Assembly: GCF_009389715.1 (NCBI RefSeq)
Contig: NC_052407.1
Coordinates: 806,001-870,000, forward strand
From: Phoenix dactylifera
Lineage: Eukaryota; Streptophyta; Magnoliopsida; Arecales; Arecaceae
Direction of reading: 5' to 3'
Length of the DNA stretch: 64,000 bases
The position numbers were made by a program, and so were the translations under genes. The notes beneath the pieces are model-generated. The model was not told the DNA's origin. It saw only the letters and a program-made list of their open reading frames with translations, and did not search any database. Shown one piece after another: positions 5,818-41,881 of the stretch; positions within the stretch are counted from its first letter, which is position 1, and every line of letters begins with the position of its first letter.

Positions 5818-8800
5818 ATGGTGAGCGCCATCTCCACTCCCTTCCCTTCTCGCTCCACCCCTGTCTCGCCGACCTTTCCCTCCTCGTCTTTGTCTAATTG
5901 GCTTCGGTGGCATCTTCTCCAGTTCTCCATTGCAGCGATCAACGACACCGATTCCAGCGGCCAGTGGGAGGCCCTCGCCCCCACCAAAGAAGCCCAGGCA
6001 CGGCCCTCCCCTTTCCCTCCTCTTTCATCTTCGTTTGAATTCTGGTCTTATTTGGTGCTCTGCCATCGAAATTTTTCTGTTTTCTTCCACTTGCTAGGAA
6101 TTATGCGCTACAGTTTCTTGATTTTATCTTGTTCTTTTAATTTTCTGTTTATTTCCCGTGTTGGAAGATCGAATCTTGAGGGGGAAAATGAATTGATCGT
6201 TGCCGTGGTGCCCTTGTAGCTCAATTCAAGAATTCACTTTTCTTATAGTGTTTTCTGCGGATATATTGGGATGTCGCCTGGCTTAGGGTTTATTCATTTC
6301 TTCTCTTTCTTTCTTTTTAATCTTTATGATGGGGAGAATCCATCGGAGAATCTTATTAGGGAAAGCAACCTGTGTGTAGCCGTGTGCAGAATTTTGAAAA
6401 GGTGGTGATTTGTTGGCGTTTTGAGCCACGAGCGAGGAAATTAATAGATGAGACAGACATTTAAAGGTTTCTAGATTTGTCATTTACTGGAGTGGACTAG
6501 GGTTTCCATGGCATACTATAATTAGTACTAAAAAGTTTCGAGATAGCTCATGTACCGTTAATGGTTTTCTTGATATATTAGATAATGATGAATCTGATTA
6601 TGAATGAGGGTACATATTTCAAGTCTTTGTAAAAATTCTTTTTAATTTTATTTTTATGTAATTTTCTTTTACTACTTAAAATAAAACATGGATGTAATGA
6701 AGAACTTTTATTAGCATGCAATATTATCTAAACTCGTTTACAGCTCAAACTATGGATGTTGTATAAACTGTGATGCATCAATGCATAACCTTAAAAACCT
6801 TGTTTATTTGAGACTGGATGTTGTTTGATACCTATGAGAACCAAAATTACAGGAATTCTTCTGATATTAATGTATTGCATTACATATGGACCTACTTTCA
6901 GTCTGTAGTGACTGTTTAAACATGAAACTCTCTCTAACTTCCACTCCTAGGTTAGAACAAATATTTTTCCAATGCCCAGCTTGGATCAGTTTGATAGATT
7001 GATGCTGAAATTGCTCAATTAACTTGTTTAGGATGAATGGGTCTTCCCTATATCATCTTGTGCTGCAAGTTTGGCATCTGAATGAAGGAATGCAACAAAT
7101 GGTTCTCTTGCACTACAGCTATGCAACGGAACTGAACTAGAGCGGCAAGCAAAATAAAGTGAGCAAACAGTATCTAGAACTTGTTAGAATCATGCCATCA
7201 TCATCCTGTAGTAACTTTAAGACCAGGATTCTACATATAAGTCTTTCTTTGATTTGGATAAAGATCTCCAACAGGCATGCAATCAAATGGACATCAACAA
7301 GCTTCACAAACTTGAATTCATCTTCATTGTTATTCGTGTATGGATATGTTGAAAATTAATATGTATGCAGGTTTGAGTGGGGGAAAAAGATGGAAACCTT
7401 CTGTAGAGAAGTAAGGATAAAATGCTCTAGTACTATGTAAAATTCATGACAATCACCATGCACTATGAAATTATAGGGGAAGGAAGAAAAGGAGAGAGGA
7501 TGGTGAAAGAACCGCGTGCATGTTCTGTTGTATCACTTTGTTGCCTGAATTCTTTCCTTTGTTACTGCTGCATCTCCTCTAGAATAGGAGCTACAGTGAT
7601 TGAAAAATCCCCATTGATGTCACCCCAGATTTCCACCATTTTGCGCTCAAATGTAATTATTAATCCTCACCACCTGGCCAATGGTTACCAGTGTACTCAC
7701 GAACCACACTCAGCTGTGTCTATGAATTCCTACATATGTTTTTCACAAAGCATCATGTTCACTGCTAGTGCAGGGACATGCTTATTGTGTCAGCTTGCTT
7801 TTATTACAAGGGCATGATATACTGTTATTGCACACTTTCCTCAGATGGAACTACTACTTTGTATGAACTCTTGCTTGACAAATTCTGAGTATCTTTTCCA
7901 GGAGTTTCATCTTTCTCAAACTTACCATGAGGGACTTCTGATGTTTCAAGCTAAAGATTATGCAAAAGCTCGTGAACTTTTAGAGGCTGTTTTAAAGGAT
8001 CCTCTTGTATCAAATGCTCAGGTAGACTCAGCTGCCAAACAATTTTTAGGTTTATTCTTACATTCCTGCCAATGATTGATTCTGTTGTTTTCTTTAGATC
8101 GATGATAATGCTCGTGATCGCCATCTCTTACAGCTGAGGTTCGCTGCCTGCAACCTTCTATTTTCTTTCTTTCATTCATTCTTTTTTTTTTTTTTGGTAT
8201 ATAAACTTGGGAGAAACACTGTTCTCCTTTCTATTGTTTGAACAGATTTTTGTCGCTGAAGAATCTGGCCGCCGTTTTCCTTCAACAAGGCTCCATGCAT
8301 TATGAGAGTGCTCTACAGTGCTATCTTCAAGCTGTAGAGATTGATACAAATGACTCGGTTGTTTGGAATCAGTTGGGAACACTGTCATGCACAATGGGCT
8401 TAATAAGCACCTCAAGATGGGCATTTGAGCAAGGGCTTTTATGCAGCCCTAACAACTGTACGTTTCTTACTTACATGTCCTTGTAGTCCCTTTTTTTTTG
8501 TGGGGGAAAAGGGAGGGGGGGGGGGGGTGAGAGAGGGAGAGAGATGCTATAATTACCTACACCCAAATGCTTGGGGATGCAGCATCCAGGACCTGAACCC
8601 AGAACCTTTGTCTGCTAAGCAGAGGGGTGTTACGATTAGGACAAGCCCCAATTGATGTCCATGTAGTATGTTATAAGATTGTTCCTGTCTAATTTGCTGT
8701 TGATATTCATACTAGATTCTAAAATTAAACTACTATTGTTGTTGTTGTGCAGGGAATTGCATGGAAAAACTCTTGGAGGTACTTATTGCTATAGGGGATG

Positions 8801-10413
8801 AGGTTGCATGCCTCTCTGTGGCAAATCTACTAATTAGGCACTGGCCATCACATTCTCGTGCTTTGCATGTCAAGAACACCATTGAGGATGCTGAACGAGT
8901 ACCATTTGCACCTCATGGTATAGATAAACTGGAACCGAAGCATGTTAAGCTTAAGTTTCCTGACAGAAGAAAACGAACAGATGATGAGATAGACAATAAT
9001 AGCCTGTCAAAAAGAAGCAATCATAACATAGAGCTGCAGTTGACTGGAGCAACATGGTCAACCCTTGTGGATGGGATCCTTGGCATTTTCCTCCCAAAAG
9101 ATGGGAAGATTTCTGAGCCAGGGATTGCAGACAATCATGATGATGCAATAAGTGAAAGCTTAACTGACAGGCAAGGAGAAGTTTTTTCGGGCGATACAAG
9201 CCCTGATAAGGGGAGCTCAGGAATTTGGATTTCTGAAAATATGGGAAGTTTTACCTGCACCAAGATAGACATGCACTTAGCTACAGCTTCAGAAATTATT
9301 CTGGACTCTGCAGAAGGAGGAACACATGGTATTTGTTCTTTTGGTGATTACACGTCACTAAGTTCTCATGGATTTGAGAAATCAAGTGAAGTGAAGGGAA
9401 AAGAAATCTGTACAGACAAAGCCCATCCTCAGGAAAGGCGGAGTACATGTCTTGAAAGGCTTAGAAGTTGCAAGTCAGGGAAAGAAGAATTGGAAGCTGG
9501 TGGCAAGGATCTGGCAGAAGTTGACTTTCGATTTCGAGAACCTTACATTCTCAAAAGGCAAAATACTGGAAATCACGATTGTTCCAGTAGCTGTGATGGT
9601 TCTCTTTCTAACATTCCCACATACACACCAATTCTTGAGCATAATGATGTTCTACAATTTATATCTAAAGCTTCAAAAAATTATGGTGCCTATCATATAG
9701 GTCATTTGTTACTAGAAGAGGTTGCCCAAAAAGGTATTCCCTTTCAAGAAAGCTTCATCAAACTTCTGGAATTAGAAAAACTGACTAGACACTCAGGTCA
9801 GGATAGGTCACCACTTTGTAGTTTATTTCTTGCTGAGCTATACTATGACCAAGGATCGTGGTCTGCTAACAAATCAAAACAGCCAGAGTTTTTCTTGGAG
9901 GCATCTTATCATCTTTGCAAAGTCATTGAGTTGGTAGCTTTGGATTCTCCCTATGACTTGGTTGATCTAGGTAACCATGTCACCGGTCCTAATATCGCAA
10001 CAGAGACAAAAGATCCTAATGGAACGGCCGAGCTTGTACACTGCACAGCAGAGGAAGAAAATATGCCGCCAACTGTTTCTTCTCAAAATGCAAGTATAAT
10101 GATGACTGGGGACTCTGACTGCGAAGAAAGTTCTGAGCAAAATTCTATTTTAACCAATAACAGTGCATTTTGGGTTCGCTTCTTCTGGCTAAGTGGTCGT
10201 CTGTCCCTTTTTTCTGGTACTAAGGCAAAAGCTTACAATGAGTTCTCCATTTGCTTATCGCTTCTGAGAAAGAACAAGAAATTGACGGAGACTAAGGATC
10301 TTATCTTTCTACCTCATTGCGAGCTTGTCAATTTGCTAACCGTTGGTAGGGTTCTTCATGAGATTAACTTGTTAAAACTTGATTCATTACTTGGAAGTTC
10401 ACAGATGAAATGA
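5818..10413 (+). CDS. CABIN1-like (calcineurin-binding/HIRA-associated) TPR protein, 5' part
   Basis: Five exons: 5818-5997, 7902-8021, 8098-8138, 8246-8457, 8753-10413. They join in one frame of 2214 bp (737 aa) ending in TGA. It closely resembles the N-terminal third of plant CABIN1-like proteins (Arabidopsis At4g32820 type, about 1,900-2,000 aa), which act in the nuclear HIRA histone-chaperone complex: SIAAINDTDSSGQW, then EFHLSQTYHEGLL, then a TPR-rich block at residues ~115-185 (VVWNQLGTLSCTMGL...). Oddities: the usual start in this family lies at Met-Phe-Ser-Ile, but here that Met is Gln (LLQFSIAA), so an in-frame ATG 105 bp upstream is the only start; the first intron has a GC donor (CAG|GCACGG); and the frame dies at 10413 while homology continues. 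Probably a truncated copy; expression unknown. Confidence 0.6.
5998..7901 (+). other. intron 1 of CABIN1-like copy
   Basis: 1.9 kb between exons 1 and 2, AT-rich, with several chance open frames. No other gene or mobile element recognised. Confidence 0.6.
8488..8655 (+). repeat. G-run and unidentified repeat-like insert in intron 4
   Basis: A run of about 14 G, a GA-rich stretch, then a GC-richer segment (CATCCAGGACCTGAACCC...) unlike the surrounding AT-rich intron. It looks like a dispersed-repeat fragment, family not recognised. Confidence 0.35.
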
Positions 10414-22099: not shown

Positions 22100-22793
22100 G
22101 ACAGGGGAGGCATTTCTCGGCAAGCGTGCGGTTTTATCTGAAAGAAGTAGCCGTTGCATTAAAGATTTCAAAAGAGTCTCCCACCCCTCCAGCACTCGCC
22201 CGTGGGAAGGGACCAAGGGGTAGAGCCGGAGATCAGGGGTTCTGCCGGCTAGTGCCGTCTCTACTCGGAGGCACGTGCCCTGCACGTGAGAAAATAATGT
22301 CTCGTTGTAACTAGCACCGGAATGATGGACCGCGCGCATGTGGATGATGAAGAGCCATGGTCTTGCATAATTGATATGCATCATGGTGAGCAGGACTCGA
22401 GACTTCAGTAGCATTTTATAATTGCTCTCTCCTCTTTAGTCATGTATCATTTTGACTCACAAACATTGCAATTATCTAATAAAGAGAGTTGATAAATTCA
22501 GTTTTATTTTGCATTTGGATAAACAAAGCTGCATTTACTAGTTCTCCTTTTTATTTTCTCATAAAAATAAATTTATTTTAATTGCTGGATTTGGAGAAAT
22601 AGATTCTTGGAAGCCTAATGCTTGCCAAACTTTTCTATCCCTAGCAGAAAATGAGGCAGCTTGTCTCCTTCAGTTATGTATGCTTGATAAGATTCTTCTT
22701 TGCGATAATTATACTTGGATAGTTTAACAATTTTGTCGCACTCCTATTGGTTTTCTTCCACCCAAACTTTTCTATGTCATAGCTGTCACGCCC
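22100..22793. other. upstream region of receptor kinase
   Basis: No gene supported. A 137-codon minus frame here is partly the translated GA repeat and has no family resemblance. Confidence 0.5.
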
Positions 22794-23345
22794 CCGCCTC
22801 CTCAGTGCCCATGTGGGAGCCCCATGAGGAGGGATCGCGGGGCTCCCCTGCCAGATATTGTCCGGTTCCGGAGCTTCACGCAAGCGTCCTTCACCCTTTC
22901 GGTTTTGTTTTCCTCCCAAAATACGTCTGCAGGATTAGGAGACACCCGCCTCATATGCCCAGGCTCTAGAACGAGTCTTTCCGATGTGGGACTATTGGGC
23001 CTCACACCCTTTCCACCATCGGACAAGAGTCGTCCTCGGCTCTGATACCAAATGTCACGCCCCCGCCTCCTCGGGGCACGTGAGGCACGCAGTGCCCATG
23101 TGGGGGCCACATGATGAGGGACCGCGGTGCTCCCTTGCCAGATATTGTCCGGTTCCGGAGCTTCACGCAAGCGTCCTTCACCCCTCTTCGATTTTGTTTT
23201 CCTCCCAAAAACGCGTCTGCAGGATTAGGAGACACCCGCCTCATATGCCCAGGCTCTAGAACGAGTCTTTCCGATGTGAGACTATTGAGCCTCATACCTT
23301 TTTCACCATCGGACAAGAGCCGTCTTCGGCTCTGATACCACTAAA

Positions 23346-24890
23346 TGTCACGCCCCAAATCCGGATCATGACACGGTCGTGCTATTGCAATCTTATGCAC
23401 ACAATAACACGAAGCCACTTAAAATTTCATAATAAAAATAAATAGTTTCATTTACTAATGTTATAACATTATTCATGAAGTTGGAACAATACAGAGCTTC
23501 TAAAATTTAATTATTACATAACGTTTTCAGTTACCCCAACCCTGAATAACACCAAGCTTCCTGCTCCTAGTAGTCTTATTCCTCTGTAGAAAAAGTAAAT
23601 AAAAAGATATGAGCTACACAGCTCAGTAAGTAACCAAGTACTATCTTATTGGATCAAGCATAATTATGCCAATGCAGTGTTTAAGAAGCTAACAGTTATG
23701 GCAAAATAAAGCATTTTATAGATGATATACACAAATCAGGTTATAAAGCAATGCATGTTCTATCAATGAAAGTTCATAAATATGAATATGCATCATATAA
23801 AATTCTTGCCATTATTCATGCTTTGAAATCCATAATTGCCATTATTCATGCTTTGAAAACCATGCTCTCAGATGGTAGTTCAGCTATGGTCACTATTATT
23901 ACCCATGACAGGGCCGTAATTTTACCAACTACTATTACTAGTTGGCGGGGCCATATGCCGAGCTATTATAACCCGCTGGCGAGGGCCATAATCTTTGCCA
24001 AGTATTATTCCCCATTGGCAGGGTCTACACCAAGCTATTAAACCCGCTGGCGAGGGCCGTATGCCGAGCTATTATAACCCGCTGGCAAGGGCCATCTGCC
24101 GAGCTATTATAACCCGCTGGCGAGGGCCGTACATAGCAATCTGAGAGTTCATAAATCATTATTCTTTTTTTTCATAAATCATAATCATCATAATAGGTTG
24201 GAAAATGATAAATGACATCATATAATTTAAAATGCATAAATATGCCTCAAATATCATTTTTCATGCAGTTTATCATAATCATAATTTCATAACTCATACA
24301 CCATCAAATATTCATGAAGGATGCTCTTTAATCAAATTCATGGATCATATGCAATCATATACTTGATCCTAATTTTGAGAAAATACATCATATCAAATAC
24401 AATTTCATAATTTCATACTTACAATTAAACAATTTGAAATCAATAAGATTGTGCCAGGGTTACTTACTGCAATTTGCTTTCCAATTTCTTACGTCCGGGT
24501 GACAAATTCTTGATCACCTAAATTAATCACATAAGGGTCACATTAATCCCTATTTATTTCATAATTTTCTAATTTATCATAACATAAATTTACTTGCTAG
24601 ATCTCAAGTCCAATTTACCCAATTTGGAGCCCTTGGGCTCGATTTAGAACCAAATTGGGTTCACGTATGTCAATTGGGCTTTTAATTAAAGGATTAGGCT
24701 TGAGTCAGGATCAGCCCGAGGCCAATTTAGTCTCAAATTAGTTGAATTGGGCTTGAATTGGGCCTGATTCATATTCAATTGGATCTGCTGGAACTAACCC
24801 AGCTTAATTGGGTTCGGACTCAAATCAATTTGGGCTTAACTAGTTTCGGATCCGAACCCAGATCCAACCTGTTAGGCCAGATCCGTTAGG
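23346..24890 (-). mobile_element. gypsy-type LTR fragment (minus) inside the composite block
   Basis: Starts TGTCACGCCCC directly after a reversed primer-binding site, as a 5' LTR in minus orientation should. Shares GAGCTACACAGCTCAGTAAG with the LTR pieces at 38080 and 51673. Right edge uncertain; it may run into the pyrimidine tract at 24890-25080. Confidence 0.55.
23935..24132. repeat. ~36-bp minisatellite in LTR
   Basis: About five imperfect units of GCCGAGCTATTATAACCCGC followed by TGGCGAGGGCC(A/G)T. Confidence 0.85.
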
Positions 24891-25075
24891 GTCTTTTCTT
24901 TTTTTTCTTTTTTTTTCTTTCTTTTTCTTTTCTTTTTCTTTTCTCCCCTGTTTCTTTTCTTCTCTTTCTCCTTTTTTTTTTCCTTCCCGAAACTTCTTCT
25001 CCTTCTCTCTTCTTTCTTATTCTTCTTCTCTTCTTTTCATCTCCTTCCCGAAGCTTTCCCTTCCCCATCTTCTCC
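24890..25075. repeat. pyrimidine-rich tract
   Basis: Nearly 190 bp of T and C (CTTTTTCTTT, CTTCTTCTCC). Low complexity; the Lys/Arg frame on minus is an artefact of it. Confidence 0.85.
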
Positions 25076-25675
25076 CGCAATCAAGAGAGGGTGATGGAGT
25101 TCTCGGGAGGGGCCGACCCCAAGGCTGGCGGCACCGCATCGGAAGCCCAATAGTTCCACATCGAAAAGACTCGTTTTAGAGCCTGGGCATATGAGGTGGG
25201 TATCTCCTAATCCCGCAGACGCGTTTTGGAAGGAAAACAAAACCGGGGAGGAGTGAGGGACGCTTGCATGAAGCTCCGAAACCGAACAATATCTGGCAGG
25301 GGAGCTCCGCGGTCCCTCCTCATGTGGCCCCCACGTGGGCACTGGGTGCCTCACATGCCCCAAGGAGGCGGGGGCTTGACATTTGGTATCAGAGCCGAGG
25401 ACGACTCTTGTTCGATGGTGGAAAGGGTGTGAGGCCCAATAGTCCCACATCGGAAAGACTCGTTCTAGAGCCTGGGCATATGAGGCGGGTGTCTCCTAAT
25501 CCTACAGACGTATTTTGGGAGGAAAACAAAACCGGGGAGGGGTGAAGGACGCTTGCGTGAAGCCCCGGAATCGGACAATATCTGGCAGGGGAGTTCCGCG
25601 GTCCCTCCTCATGTGGCCCCCACATGAGCACTGGGTGCCTCACGTGCCCCGAGGAGGCGAGGGCGTGACAATAGC

Positions 25676-30897: not shown

Positions 30898-33800
30898 ATG
30901 CAGCCTAGTTTGCAGCGGAGGAGATTTATATCGGGTGGGAAGTTGAGCATGGAAGGAGACTTCTTGGAAGAGAAGGCGGCCGTGGCCATGGGGGAAGAGG
31001 ACAGGTACGACGAGGAGGTCCGAGCCTGGAGCTGGGGCGCGGCCTCCGATGGCCAGCTCGGGACGGGCACCCTCGAGGACCAGCTTTTCCCCCAGCCCCT
31101 CCTCAACTTCCCACCCCTCTCCTCCGCCGCCGCCGCACGTCGCATCGCCCAAATAGCTTGCGGTGGCGCCCATTCAATCGCCTTAACCGGTAACGACCAA
31201 GAAATCCTTCGCTCCAAGATTCCATCTTCACCACTTCAACTCGGAATTCGATACTGTTGTGTGTTAATCACACACAAGCTCTCAGCTTTTAGCTAAAAAT
31301 TGAATCTTTAAGTGTTTCGAGGGTTTGGAACTGTTGGTCTTAGTGATTTTCCCGTCTTGATATGAGATTATCTTTGCTTAGTTTAGAAGCAGGGTGGGGT
31401 GGATTAGCTAGGGTTTTGGTGGATATCTTCCTGTAGGCTAACACTTTTTATCATGGAAAGCTTAGATTTAAAGGTGGAATGCCAGTAGACTGCATTGTCG
31501 ATGTATTAAGGATTTTGGCAATACACATATATGGGTAATCTAGATTGCTAAATTGTTTAGATGCATCAGAGCGTATGTATGTCAGAGGGTTCAAAACATG
31601 TCTATTTTAGTCAGCAAGTAATTTTAAACTAACCTTGTTAGACGTAATTCAGCGTATCAGTTATTTAACGTATGGCAATTAAAACTTTTGTTCTAATAGG
31701 ACCTTGCATTTTGTTATAAATTACTTTCAGATAGCATGCAGTACAAATACAATCATCTCTGATGTATATAGGATATATTCAGGAACGCATAGAATCATCT
31801 GTGAGACACTTTTGGTTTTTTTTGGGAAAGTTACTGCCTTGTTCTATGTGCAAATCTCTAGTCCACCTTGACTATAAACTTTGTCTGAAATTGATTTCAG
31901 ATTATGATCAAGTGTGGGCAAGAAAGCTACCTTCTGTAATTAGAGGATGAATGCCCTTTAATGACATATGCAGATATATTTAAATTGTTTTGGAAGTTAT
32001 AATTATTTCCTTACAATGAATTTGATTTTATGGCTAGTTTCTTCTTCGTTCTTAAAATTCGTCGCTGAATGTTATTCATTTTTTTTTTGGGGAAGAATGT
32101 TTTTGTTATTGAAGTGCCACAACTTGTTAATGATGCCGACTTTATGATTTCAAGTTTCCATCTGGCTGTTACTGCTTAGTCACTTTGAAACTCTGCTAGT
32201 GACTTTGGATCACCTTTTATAAGCTCTGCATTCAATTTATATGGCCATGTTTTTATGTTGAGAAACTTCATCAGATTGATTTTTCTACTTGTAGTGATCC
32301 TTCAGTATTTCCTTTCATGTTTATAATCTTGGAATGCTGCTTGGCATTTCCCTCATAATTACCATAACACTTTGATATGGATGAAAAATAATATGTTTTA
32401 TGCTAAAATGAAATGGTGTCTACTTCACTGACAGTTTTATAGGTGATGGTAGGGCACTGACATGGGGGAGGGGTACATGTGGTCAACTCGGTCACCAAGA
32501 GCTGTCAAACTGCTTGCTGCCAAAGCCTGTAAAGTTCCTTGAAAGCTTTACTATAACCTATGTCTCTGCTGGATGGAATCACTCTGGCTTTGTTACAGGT
32601 TTCTAAATGCTGGAACAATTACTTACTCTTCTTTACCTGATACAGAGATTAAAGTTCAGTTTTATTTTGATGCTTTAATGTGACAAAGGGAATATGAAAT
32701 TAAAAAATATAAATTAGACAGAAAACGTAAAATTTTAGAAGTTAGCATTATATGCACTACAGATACGACTGGCAAGATACTATTACTAGGATACTGATTA
32801 CTGGTGCATATTCATGTGGCGGTAAAGTATAAAGCCATCATATTGAAGTTCAATTCTCAGCTCTGGTATATCATGTGCTATTTTTAATGCTGAATGTGCA
32901 TTTGATAAGGCAGCTTTTCATTCTTACTGTTAGTATGTTACTGTGTCATCAGTGCATGTTGTCTGCCCACTTTCAATGTTGCTTTTGATCTTTGCCGTGA
33001 TGGTTCTCCCTCTGTTTCTTTTTCCTGCTTCTCAGATACAGGACAACTCTTTATGTGTGGGGATGGCTCATTTGGGCAGCTTGGAAATGGAGATCATCAA
33101 TCACATGGTTCCCCTGTTGAAGTCTTATTTTTTTCTTCAAAGCATGTTGAGCAAATAGCATGTGGGATGCGCCATTCTCTTGCACTGGTGTCTGGTAAAA
33201 ATATTAATGATTTATGCCTATTCATGAATTTAAAATTGATAATGCTAATTCTGTTTCAGTTGAATGTTGACAAGCTTAATTTGCTTTATTTATCAGCTTC
33301 CCTTGCAAAGCCTGAAAAGAAAGCCACGAAATTCAATGGATACTAAATTATTCTTTTATTAAATTCATTTTTTTTTCTGGCAGAAGTTTGAGAAAATGAA
33401 CTTGAAGAAGCAATATTCAAGATTTATTTTCATGAAATCCTACATGTCTGTCTATCTTGTCACGATTGTCTGATATGGATGTATCTGGACATTGATTAGT
33501 GATTTTGGCACCAATGTCTATTTTAACATATATTTAGCCTCACATAAGCTGTTTTTTCCCCCAGTTTCCATTTTGAGCTTCAAATATAGCTTTTCATACC
33601 ATACCACTACAAAAAAGTTGTAATGTAACTTGTGTCGAGTACAAGTTACACTTCATCCTTGTTCTGTATTTAATTATAATAATCTGATAACCATCCATCG
33701 ATATATCATGTTCCTGGTTGATACTTTAACATCATAAAACTAAATAAACTTATATGTCACAAATGGAAGAGTTTCAAAATTTCAAAACAAAGAAATGACA

Positions 33801-41371: not shown

Positions 41372-41881
41372 TGTCATGCCTCCGCATTCGTGGAGCACGA
41401 GAGGCACCCAGTGCCCACGTGGGGACCACATGAGGGGAGAAACATGGGCTTTTCTGCCGGATATTGTCCGATTCCGGAGCTTCACGCAAGCGTCCTCCAC
41501 CCCTTTCCGGTTTTATTTTTTTCTTAAAATGCGCCTGCAGGATTTGGAGACACCCGCCTCATATGACCAAGCTCTGTAACGAGTCTTTCCGATGTGGGAC
41601 TATTGAGCCTCAAATCGTCACCTTATCCGATGGTGGGAAGGATGTAAGGCCCAATAGTCCCGCATCGGAAAGACTCATTCCAAAGTCTGGGCATATGAGG
41701 CGGGTGTCTCCTAATCCCGCAGACGCATTTTGGGAGGAAAACAAAACCGGAGAGGGATGAAGGACGCTTGCGTCAACCCCCGGAATCGGACAATATCTGG
41801 CAGGAGAGCCCCGTGTTCCTCCCTCATGTGGCCCCTACGTGGGCACTGCCGCACGTGCCGGGTGCAGGCGGGGGCGTGACA
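41372..41881. mobile_element. TRIM-B inverted LTR pair
   Basis: Minus-oriented LTR 41372-41613 and plus-oriented LTR 41643-41881, 240 bp each, with a 29-bp spacer that matches the 3' part of the TRIM-B interior (ATCCGATGGTGGGAAGGA). Both arms carry ACACCCGCCTCATATG or its complement. The pair begins TGTCATGCC and ends GGGCGTGACA. Flanks are AACAC on the left and AGCAC on the right, a possible 5-bp target duplication with one change. The arms would fold into a long hairpin. Confidence 0.75.

Follow-up and report, generated by a model that had tools for sequence, protein, structure and literature searches.

How did a block of retrotransposon LTRs in inverted orientation, with U5 at both of its outer termini, come to lie between two copies of the same five bases? 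The block occupies positions 22784-25670 of a 64,000-nucleotide stretch of the date palm (Phoenix dactylifera) genome (C16:806001-870000; here termed the window), and its flanks, ATAGC on either side, raise the question of whether it was inserted as one molecule and, if so, how such a molecule was made. Read at the level of sequence, single integration with U5 at both ends, its recurrence elsewhere in the genome and a signature at the joints are evident, and they indicate that two identical ends, in place of the usual unlike pair, are acceptable to the insertion enzyme. The window block itself, in our judgement, quite probably arose when two retrotransposon cDNAs, joined head to head, were integrated as one molecule.

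Structure of the inverted block

The original prediction placed the left boundary of the block at 22794; the terminus lies 10 bases lower and reads TGTCACGCCC, with GGGCGTGACA at the right terminus. The rest of that outline, namely the end at 25670, the inverted outer LTRs with U5 at both termini and ATAGC on each side, agrees with what is read at the two ends (Table 1). An internal junction at 23345/23346 had been located correctly, and a second one, expected at about 25140/25145, exists but lies at 25138/25139, the position up to which relatives of the central LTR align. The arms are inverted repeats (longest ungapped pair 311 nt, 94% complementarity) of unequal composition: on the minus strand the left arm runs from a Ty3/gypsy-type LTR, termed 'MID', through TTTAGTGGTATCAGAGCC, a TRIM internal part, LTR B and a further internal part to LTR A, and on the plus strand the right arm consists of LTR C, an internal part and LTR D. 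The block is old, with a mean between-arm LTR divergence of 0.086.

Table 1. Parts of the inverted block and of a second insertion in the window.
Feature	Position	Strand	Remarks
Target-site duplication ATAGC, left copy	22779..22783		
TRIM LTR A, outer left	22784..23006	-	U5 end at 22784; near U5, an 18-base gap relative to other copies
TRIM internal part	23007..23052	-	TT, then PBS-like TGGTATCAGAGCC; PPT-like purine tract before U3
TRIM LTR B	23053..23295	-	
TRIM internal part, chimeric junction to gypsy-type LTR	23296..23345	-	PBS side with gypsy-type spacing TTTAGTGGTATCAGAGC
LTR of Ty3/gypsy-type family 'MID'	23346..25138	-	U5 end at 23346; U3 truncated
U3-to-U3 central joint of the inverted block	25138..25139		
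TRIM LTR C	25139..25381	+	First 3 bases diverged or replaced
TRIM internal part	25382..25427	+	PBS-like and PPT-like sites
TRIM LTR D, outer right	25428..25670	+	U5 end at 25670
Target-site duplication ATAGC, right copy	25671..25675		
Second U5-out insertion, left LTR	41372..41614	-	Left flank AACAC
Second U5-out insertion, right LTR	41643..41881	+	Right flank AGCAC, 4 of 5 matching

A lack of further copies sharing these junctions, each within a duplication of its own, had been named as evidence against a single insertion. A genome search with 25030-25260 (40 candidates scored) returned no second copy of the 25138/25139 joint; among the matches listed, the others end at one side of it, and the match at C15:1778269 starts 6 bases before the rest, with the MID side not reached. 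While this joint is thus unique among the candidates scored, loci with U5 at both ends (U5-out) and their own duplications were found, and the uniqueness does not refute a single insertion because the centres of these other loci also differ from one another. When the left flank of the block was compared with the genome in a search for the empty site, it matched only itself and one stretch of 67 bases at 79% identity.

The surroundings of the block contain open frames resembling plant gene exons (8761-10413 and 30898-31296, the latter RCC1-like by eye), between which the block sits. Imperfect 35-bp repeats are found inside the MID LTR (23948-24131), and a tRNA search found none.

The repeating unit and its class

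In aligned copies the LTR of the small unit is 243 bp long (TGTGAGGCCC...GGGCGTGACA). The 46 bp between LTRs start with TT, followed by TGGTATCAGAGCC, which we take to be the usual plant initiator-Met tRNA primer site, and a purine tract, GGTGGAAAGGG or GGTGGGAAGGG, directly precedes U3. An internal part of 46 bp between LTRs of 243 bp is too short for a gene, and by its anatomy the unit is a TRIM with a period of 289. Two-LTR copies exist (e.g. L019), as do loci with at least three LTRs inside one duplication, the defining feature of TA-TRIMs (e.g. L043 and L029, and L003 with a 4-of-5 match). The 5-bp flanks are perfect at 33 of the 37 family loci at which both outer ends were read, and four or five of the five bases match at all 37. 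Identity with Cassandra, for which a 5S rRNA-like sequence in the LTR is the criterion, was rejected, as the window contains no 5S rRNA match at the Rfam gathering score.

Long inverted arms within a target duplication would also be expected of a foldback element or of a DNA transposon whose termini are long inverted repeats. The termini of such an element are always inverted, yet at 18 of the 37 loci the outer ends are a U3 and a U5, with like duplications, and at one locus (C2:9.71M, see below) the TRIM unit was inserted together with a gypsy-type LTR; we regard this reading as practically untenable.

U5-out insertions across the genome

In the 773 Mb of genome searched, U5 forms both outer ends at 19 of these 37 loci. 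The duplication is perfect at 17 of the 19, with 16 different 5-mers (ATAGC, ATATT (twice), AATCA, ATTTG, TAGAG, AGTAC, ATGAT, GGAGG, ATCAC, CGGAT, ACCAT, ATAAT, GATAA, GTTTG, GCAAT and GTGAG), and the remaining two match at four of five bases. These are C115 and a second insertion in the window (41372-41881), an older U5-out pair of the same family that lies 16 kb from the block and shows 18.5% between-arm divergence. The 18 loci whose outer ends are a U3 and a U5 have 16 perfect duplications and two with four of five; in size they range from two LTRs to long arrays, and inverted segments occur inside C1:3.09M and C11:11.0M. U3 at both ends was seen at none of the 37.

A simple alternative is that two independent insertions in opposite orientation happen to have matching flanks, or that an insertion was inverted afterwards. 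For a single locus, a 5-bp match has a chance of about 0.0012 (local composition) or 0.0014 (random 5-mer pairs of the window), close to the 1 in 1000 estimated in the original prediction, and for one locus alone such a coincidence could be entertained. When left flanks were paired with right flanks of other loci, however, only 3 of 1332 pairs matched perfectly and 43 of 1332 at four or more positions, as against 17 perfect and 19 with four or five matches among the 19 U5-out loci; it is this contrast, and not the window locus alone, that excludes chance. Flanks differ among the U5-out loci, which are thus not copies of one locus, and recombination between inverted repeats inside an array would, by reasoning, leave the outer end unturned. 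We therefore consider separate insertion or later inversion extremely unlikely, and the proposal that one linear molecule with two U5 ends was integrated once is supported by this locus and by 18 further ones. An assembly artefact was rejected as well, given different flanks with matching 5-mers at 19 places.

The proportion of 19 in 37 is not a frequency, because ten of the U5-out loci came from the head-to-head and central-joint queries and, bar the 41-kb copy in the window, were picked for a change in LTR orientation. The direct-array query found 39 distinct loci: nine U5-out, 14 with U3 and U5 ends, and 16 with an end truncated or outside the sequence read (C4:18.36M, C14:12.3M, C1140, C258, C6:17.2M, C784, C34, C580, C11:12.28M, C20, C8, C558, C1:29.6M, C495:48k, C15 and C7). 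Also left out of the 37 are C495:62.9k (L027), C201 (L020) and C1332, this last because it has flanks identical to those of C28; C580 and C1140 share an identical left flank and look like duplicates. The head-to-head query (41372-41881) spans both halves at at least five other loci (C106, C495, C6:1.64M, C10:8.15M and C4:31.0M; 40 candidates scored). With a tail-to-tail query (L037:4093-4614), both halves were matched only at the query's own locus among the 40 candidates scored, and this locus is part of an array whose outer ends are U3 and U5. As each of the two queries covered 40 candidates, rare U3-out insertions may exist.

Joints and centres

Additional information comes from non-canonical joints, that is, those that are neither LTR-PBS nor PPT-LTR, which were scanned in 37 sources with a U5 motif (one mismatch) and a U3 motif (two mismatches). 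Inside arrays, U5 ends at such joints retain TT, the two bases between LTR and PBS, in 11 of 12 cases (exception C20, L052), where the TT joints at L038 3203 and 3948 are identical in sequence and may be one event. U3 starts retain the preceding GG in 12 of 14 cases (exceptions the 41-kb copy in the window and L044), where one joint of L036 is entered twice, once from each side; four TTGG-type joints are counted in both lists. The counts leave out outer flanks, motif hits that are not in arrays (window 38713 and 45005; L043 8784), gypsy-type PBS contexts (L027; L069 163) and one canonical site bearing a small deletion (L031). At L034, L035, L037, L038 (6051), L040, L043, L069 and L088, the base at the joint recurs in the partner, so that the position of the joint is uncertain by one or two bases.

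In retroviruses, untrimmed linear cDNA carries two extra bases at each end, and the TT and GG seen here would correspond to these bases. Autointegration, in which the U5 end of a cDNA attacks that same cDNA or a sister molecule, with integration of the product to follow, was one of three sources considered in the original prediction. It is able to produce inverted LTR arrangements, and the one joint without TT (C20) would suit it, but it predicts a trimmed CA at the joint, whereas the two bases that integrase would be expected to remove before strand transfer are kept at 11 of the 12 U5 joints; this makes it a very improbable source. Joining of two elements U3 to U3 fits best among the three. 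At C13 (L036), two untrimmed U3 ends directly face each other (CACACC/GGTGTG), and L007 and C6:17.2M (L083) contain the U5-U3 joint TGACA-TTGG-TGTGAGG, a two-LTR junction. End joining is not directly readable from the window block, because it is old and GG is absent at its own central joint. A different type of joint is found at L081 (C558:59660-59850), where a TRIM U3 end with two extra bases is joined via ATTA to another U3 start; the partner resembles a further small LTR (TGTGAGGATCC...) and has a PBS-like site behind it, i.e. a joint of two families.

The centres of the inverted insertions vary from locus to locus. Twelve head-to-head centres were read (11 in the 37-locus set and one in L027), in addition to four switches inside two other arrays and two more centres. 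An untrimmed U3 end is present at the centres of L036 and L033 and ambiguously at L040 and C14:5.38M, while the centres of L029 and C6:7.77M fall where the internal part and U3 are self-complementary. In an ordinary unit, the PPT/U3 boundary forms a stem of -11.2 kcal/mol (z -2.61; equally stable folds in 2 of 200 shuffles); the L029 centre folds as a finished palindrome does, which does not bear on the mechanism. Such a stem would suit a fold-back or strand switch of reverse transcriptase: the growing minus strand would double back near PPT/U3, or switch there to another minus strand, and a palindrome with U5 at either end would be copied out and integrated. This route would yield only U5-out molecules with arms from one source, and two centres lie inside the stem, but the untrimmed U3 ends at L036 and L033 (and, with ambiguity, at L040 and C14:5.38M) and the U5-U3 TTGG joints are easier to obtain by end joining of double-stranded DNA. 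Fold-back copying may account for some centres (L029 and C6:7.77M); as the general explanation it is a serious but distinctly less probable candidate, and we favour end-joined dimers.

The gypsy-type partner

The central stretch of the block is a member of an LTR family: across the 40 candidates scored, 119 pieces match it. The leader TTTAGTGGTATCAGAGCAATAGGTTTAATAAA comes after the U5 end in two MID copies, and a nearly identical leader lies in L027 between a TRIM LTR and gag-pol frames. These frames match gag, RVP_2, RVT_1, RNase H and integrase H2C2 (zinc) domains; Chromo stays below the cut-off (20.5 vs 25.1 bits), and a 193-aa piece of L027 gave no domain match. The closely similar leaders of MID copies and of L027, in which the preceding LTR is that of TRIM, make a Ty3/gypsy chromovirus a candidate source of MID. 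At C2:9.71M the left outer end is MID U5 and the right one TRIM U5, with GTGAG on both sides, and since one insertion there brought in an end of each family, the gypsy-type family is likely the helper of TRIM. The hybrid arm in which the MID LTR meets TRIM at the PBS is also found in L028, L034 and L045, a recurrence that suggests switching at the PBS. Template switching, likewise considered in the original prediction, probably made the junction between gypsy-type LTR and TRIM, but as the source of a molecule with two U5 ends it fits less well than U3-to-U3 joining.

Several related structures were seen. An 8.5-kb composite (L034/L035, C564:54882-63382) has TRIM arrays and two opposed MID LTR stretches within one AGTAC duplication, and its centre falls within L034 6484-9139. 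At L097, L099, L101 and L069, a second large LTR family (TGTCACGCYCCGAGCCCGAGGCGCGG) joins the TRIM internal part at the PBS, like MID, and at L020 (1740-1800) a TRIM LTR and internal part pass inside the PBS into TGTTGGGAACCC, which resembles a copia-type LTR start. Another MID copy with a run of short repeats lies at C6:17973297-17973648.

Divergence of the arms

Mean LTR divergence between arms is about equal to that within arms (between/within 0.004/0.008 in L029, 0.018/0.023 in L038 and 0.086/0.081 in the window block). Of 13 loci, 11 (all but L030 and L040) have arms that differ less from each other than, on average, from other loci, but only 6 have arms closer to each other than to the nearest other locus, and the nearest neighbour of an LTR is in its own locus for 34 of 69 LTRs and in another locus for 35. 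A common source of the two arms is thus only suggested, and weakly so, because gene conversion between arms could yield the same picture and because of these 34 in 69 nearest neighbours.

Proposed model

In the proposed model, a TRIM RNA and a gypsy-type RNA with a related primer site would both undergo reverse transcription, probably within a single particle. A switch at the PBS common to the two would generate the hybrid arm 'gypsy LTR - PBS - TRIM internal - TRIM LTR', as suggested by the junction in the block, and two such cDNAs would be joined at their U3 sides by end joining before integration, as suggested by joints at other loci. In reverse transcription, the U5 cDNA end of the right LTR is completed first, whereas the left LTR is completed on its U3 side only at the very end. 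If cDNAs were joined where U3 is unfinished or trimmed, both U5 ends should therefore stay intact, and the U5-out polarity as well as the varied centres would follow from this order. The integrase would trim the two U5 ends and insert the molecule, a step to which the 5-bp duplications attest. Longer arms could be built by U5-U3 end joining, giving TTGG joints, and by recombination between LTRs, giving the regular 289-bp period. On balance, though with less assurance than for the window block, we favour the broader view that pairing of two U5 ends by integrase is a regular second insertion route for TRIM and its gypsy-type partner, that head-to-head cDNA dimers, end-joined in or near the particle, make up a sizeable share of multi-LTR insertions (9 of the 23 direct-array-query loci with both ends read), and that the polarity derives from the order of reverse transcription.

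Comparison with known systems

Because both the definition of LTR elements and the searches for them rely on direct LTRs, insertions with inverted LTRs will probably be classed as nested debris or as transposons of the inverted-repeat type. Joints like those described here are familiar from the two-LTR circles of retroviruses and retrotransposons, in which end joining of untrimmed U5 and U3 cDNA ends produces TTGG-like junctions; in the date palm, such joints, together with U3-U3 joints, are found inside integrated linear concatemers. Early yeast work reportedly described multimeric Ty1 cDNA.

Multi-LTR complexes within one duplication are known from the Triticeae, where they were argued to be the result of one integration (Sabot and Schulman 2007, PMC1950507); there they are three-LTR fusions, and the word 'inverted' is absent from the text. 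Cassandra, a non-coding retroelement, likewise forms long arrays of LTR and internal part, which the accessible sections of the report (PMC7215508) describe as tandem, with no inverted insertions. In the open-access literature searched, we found nothing closer to integrated inverted LTR cDNAs than the TA-TRIMs (Gao et al. 2016, PMC4717578), small LTR units that are, as here, arrayed inside one 5-bp duplication. Their survey table includes date palm, and an inverted form with the target-site duplication CTTCA is reported in maize (legend to Fig. 2C). The available text of that paper gives no account of the origin of the inverted form or of end polarity, and the terms 'unequal' and 'template switching' are absent from it. 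The TRIM family described here provides a natural record of the cDNA ends that integrase pairs and of plant cDNA end joining and, through a gypsy-type U5 and a TRIM U5 within one duplication, shows which element may supply TRIM enzymes. Relative to the TA-TRIMs as presented in that text, the date palm family adds 19 U5-out loci, joints of untrimmed ends and co-insertion of gypsy-type and TRIM ends, and what is new is the recurrence, the U5-out polarity, the joint signature and the co-insertion with a gypsy-type LTR.
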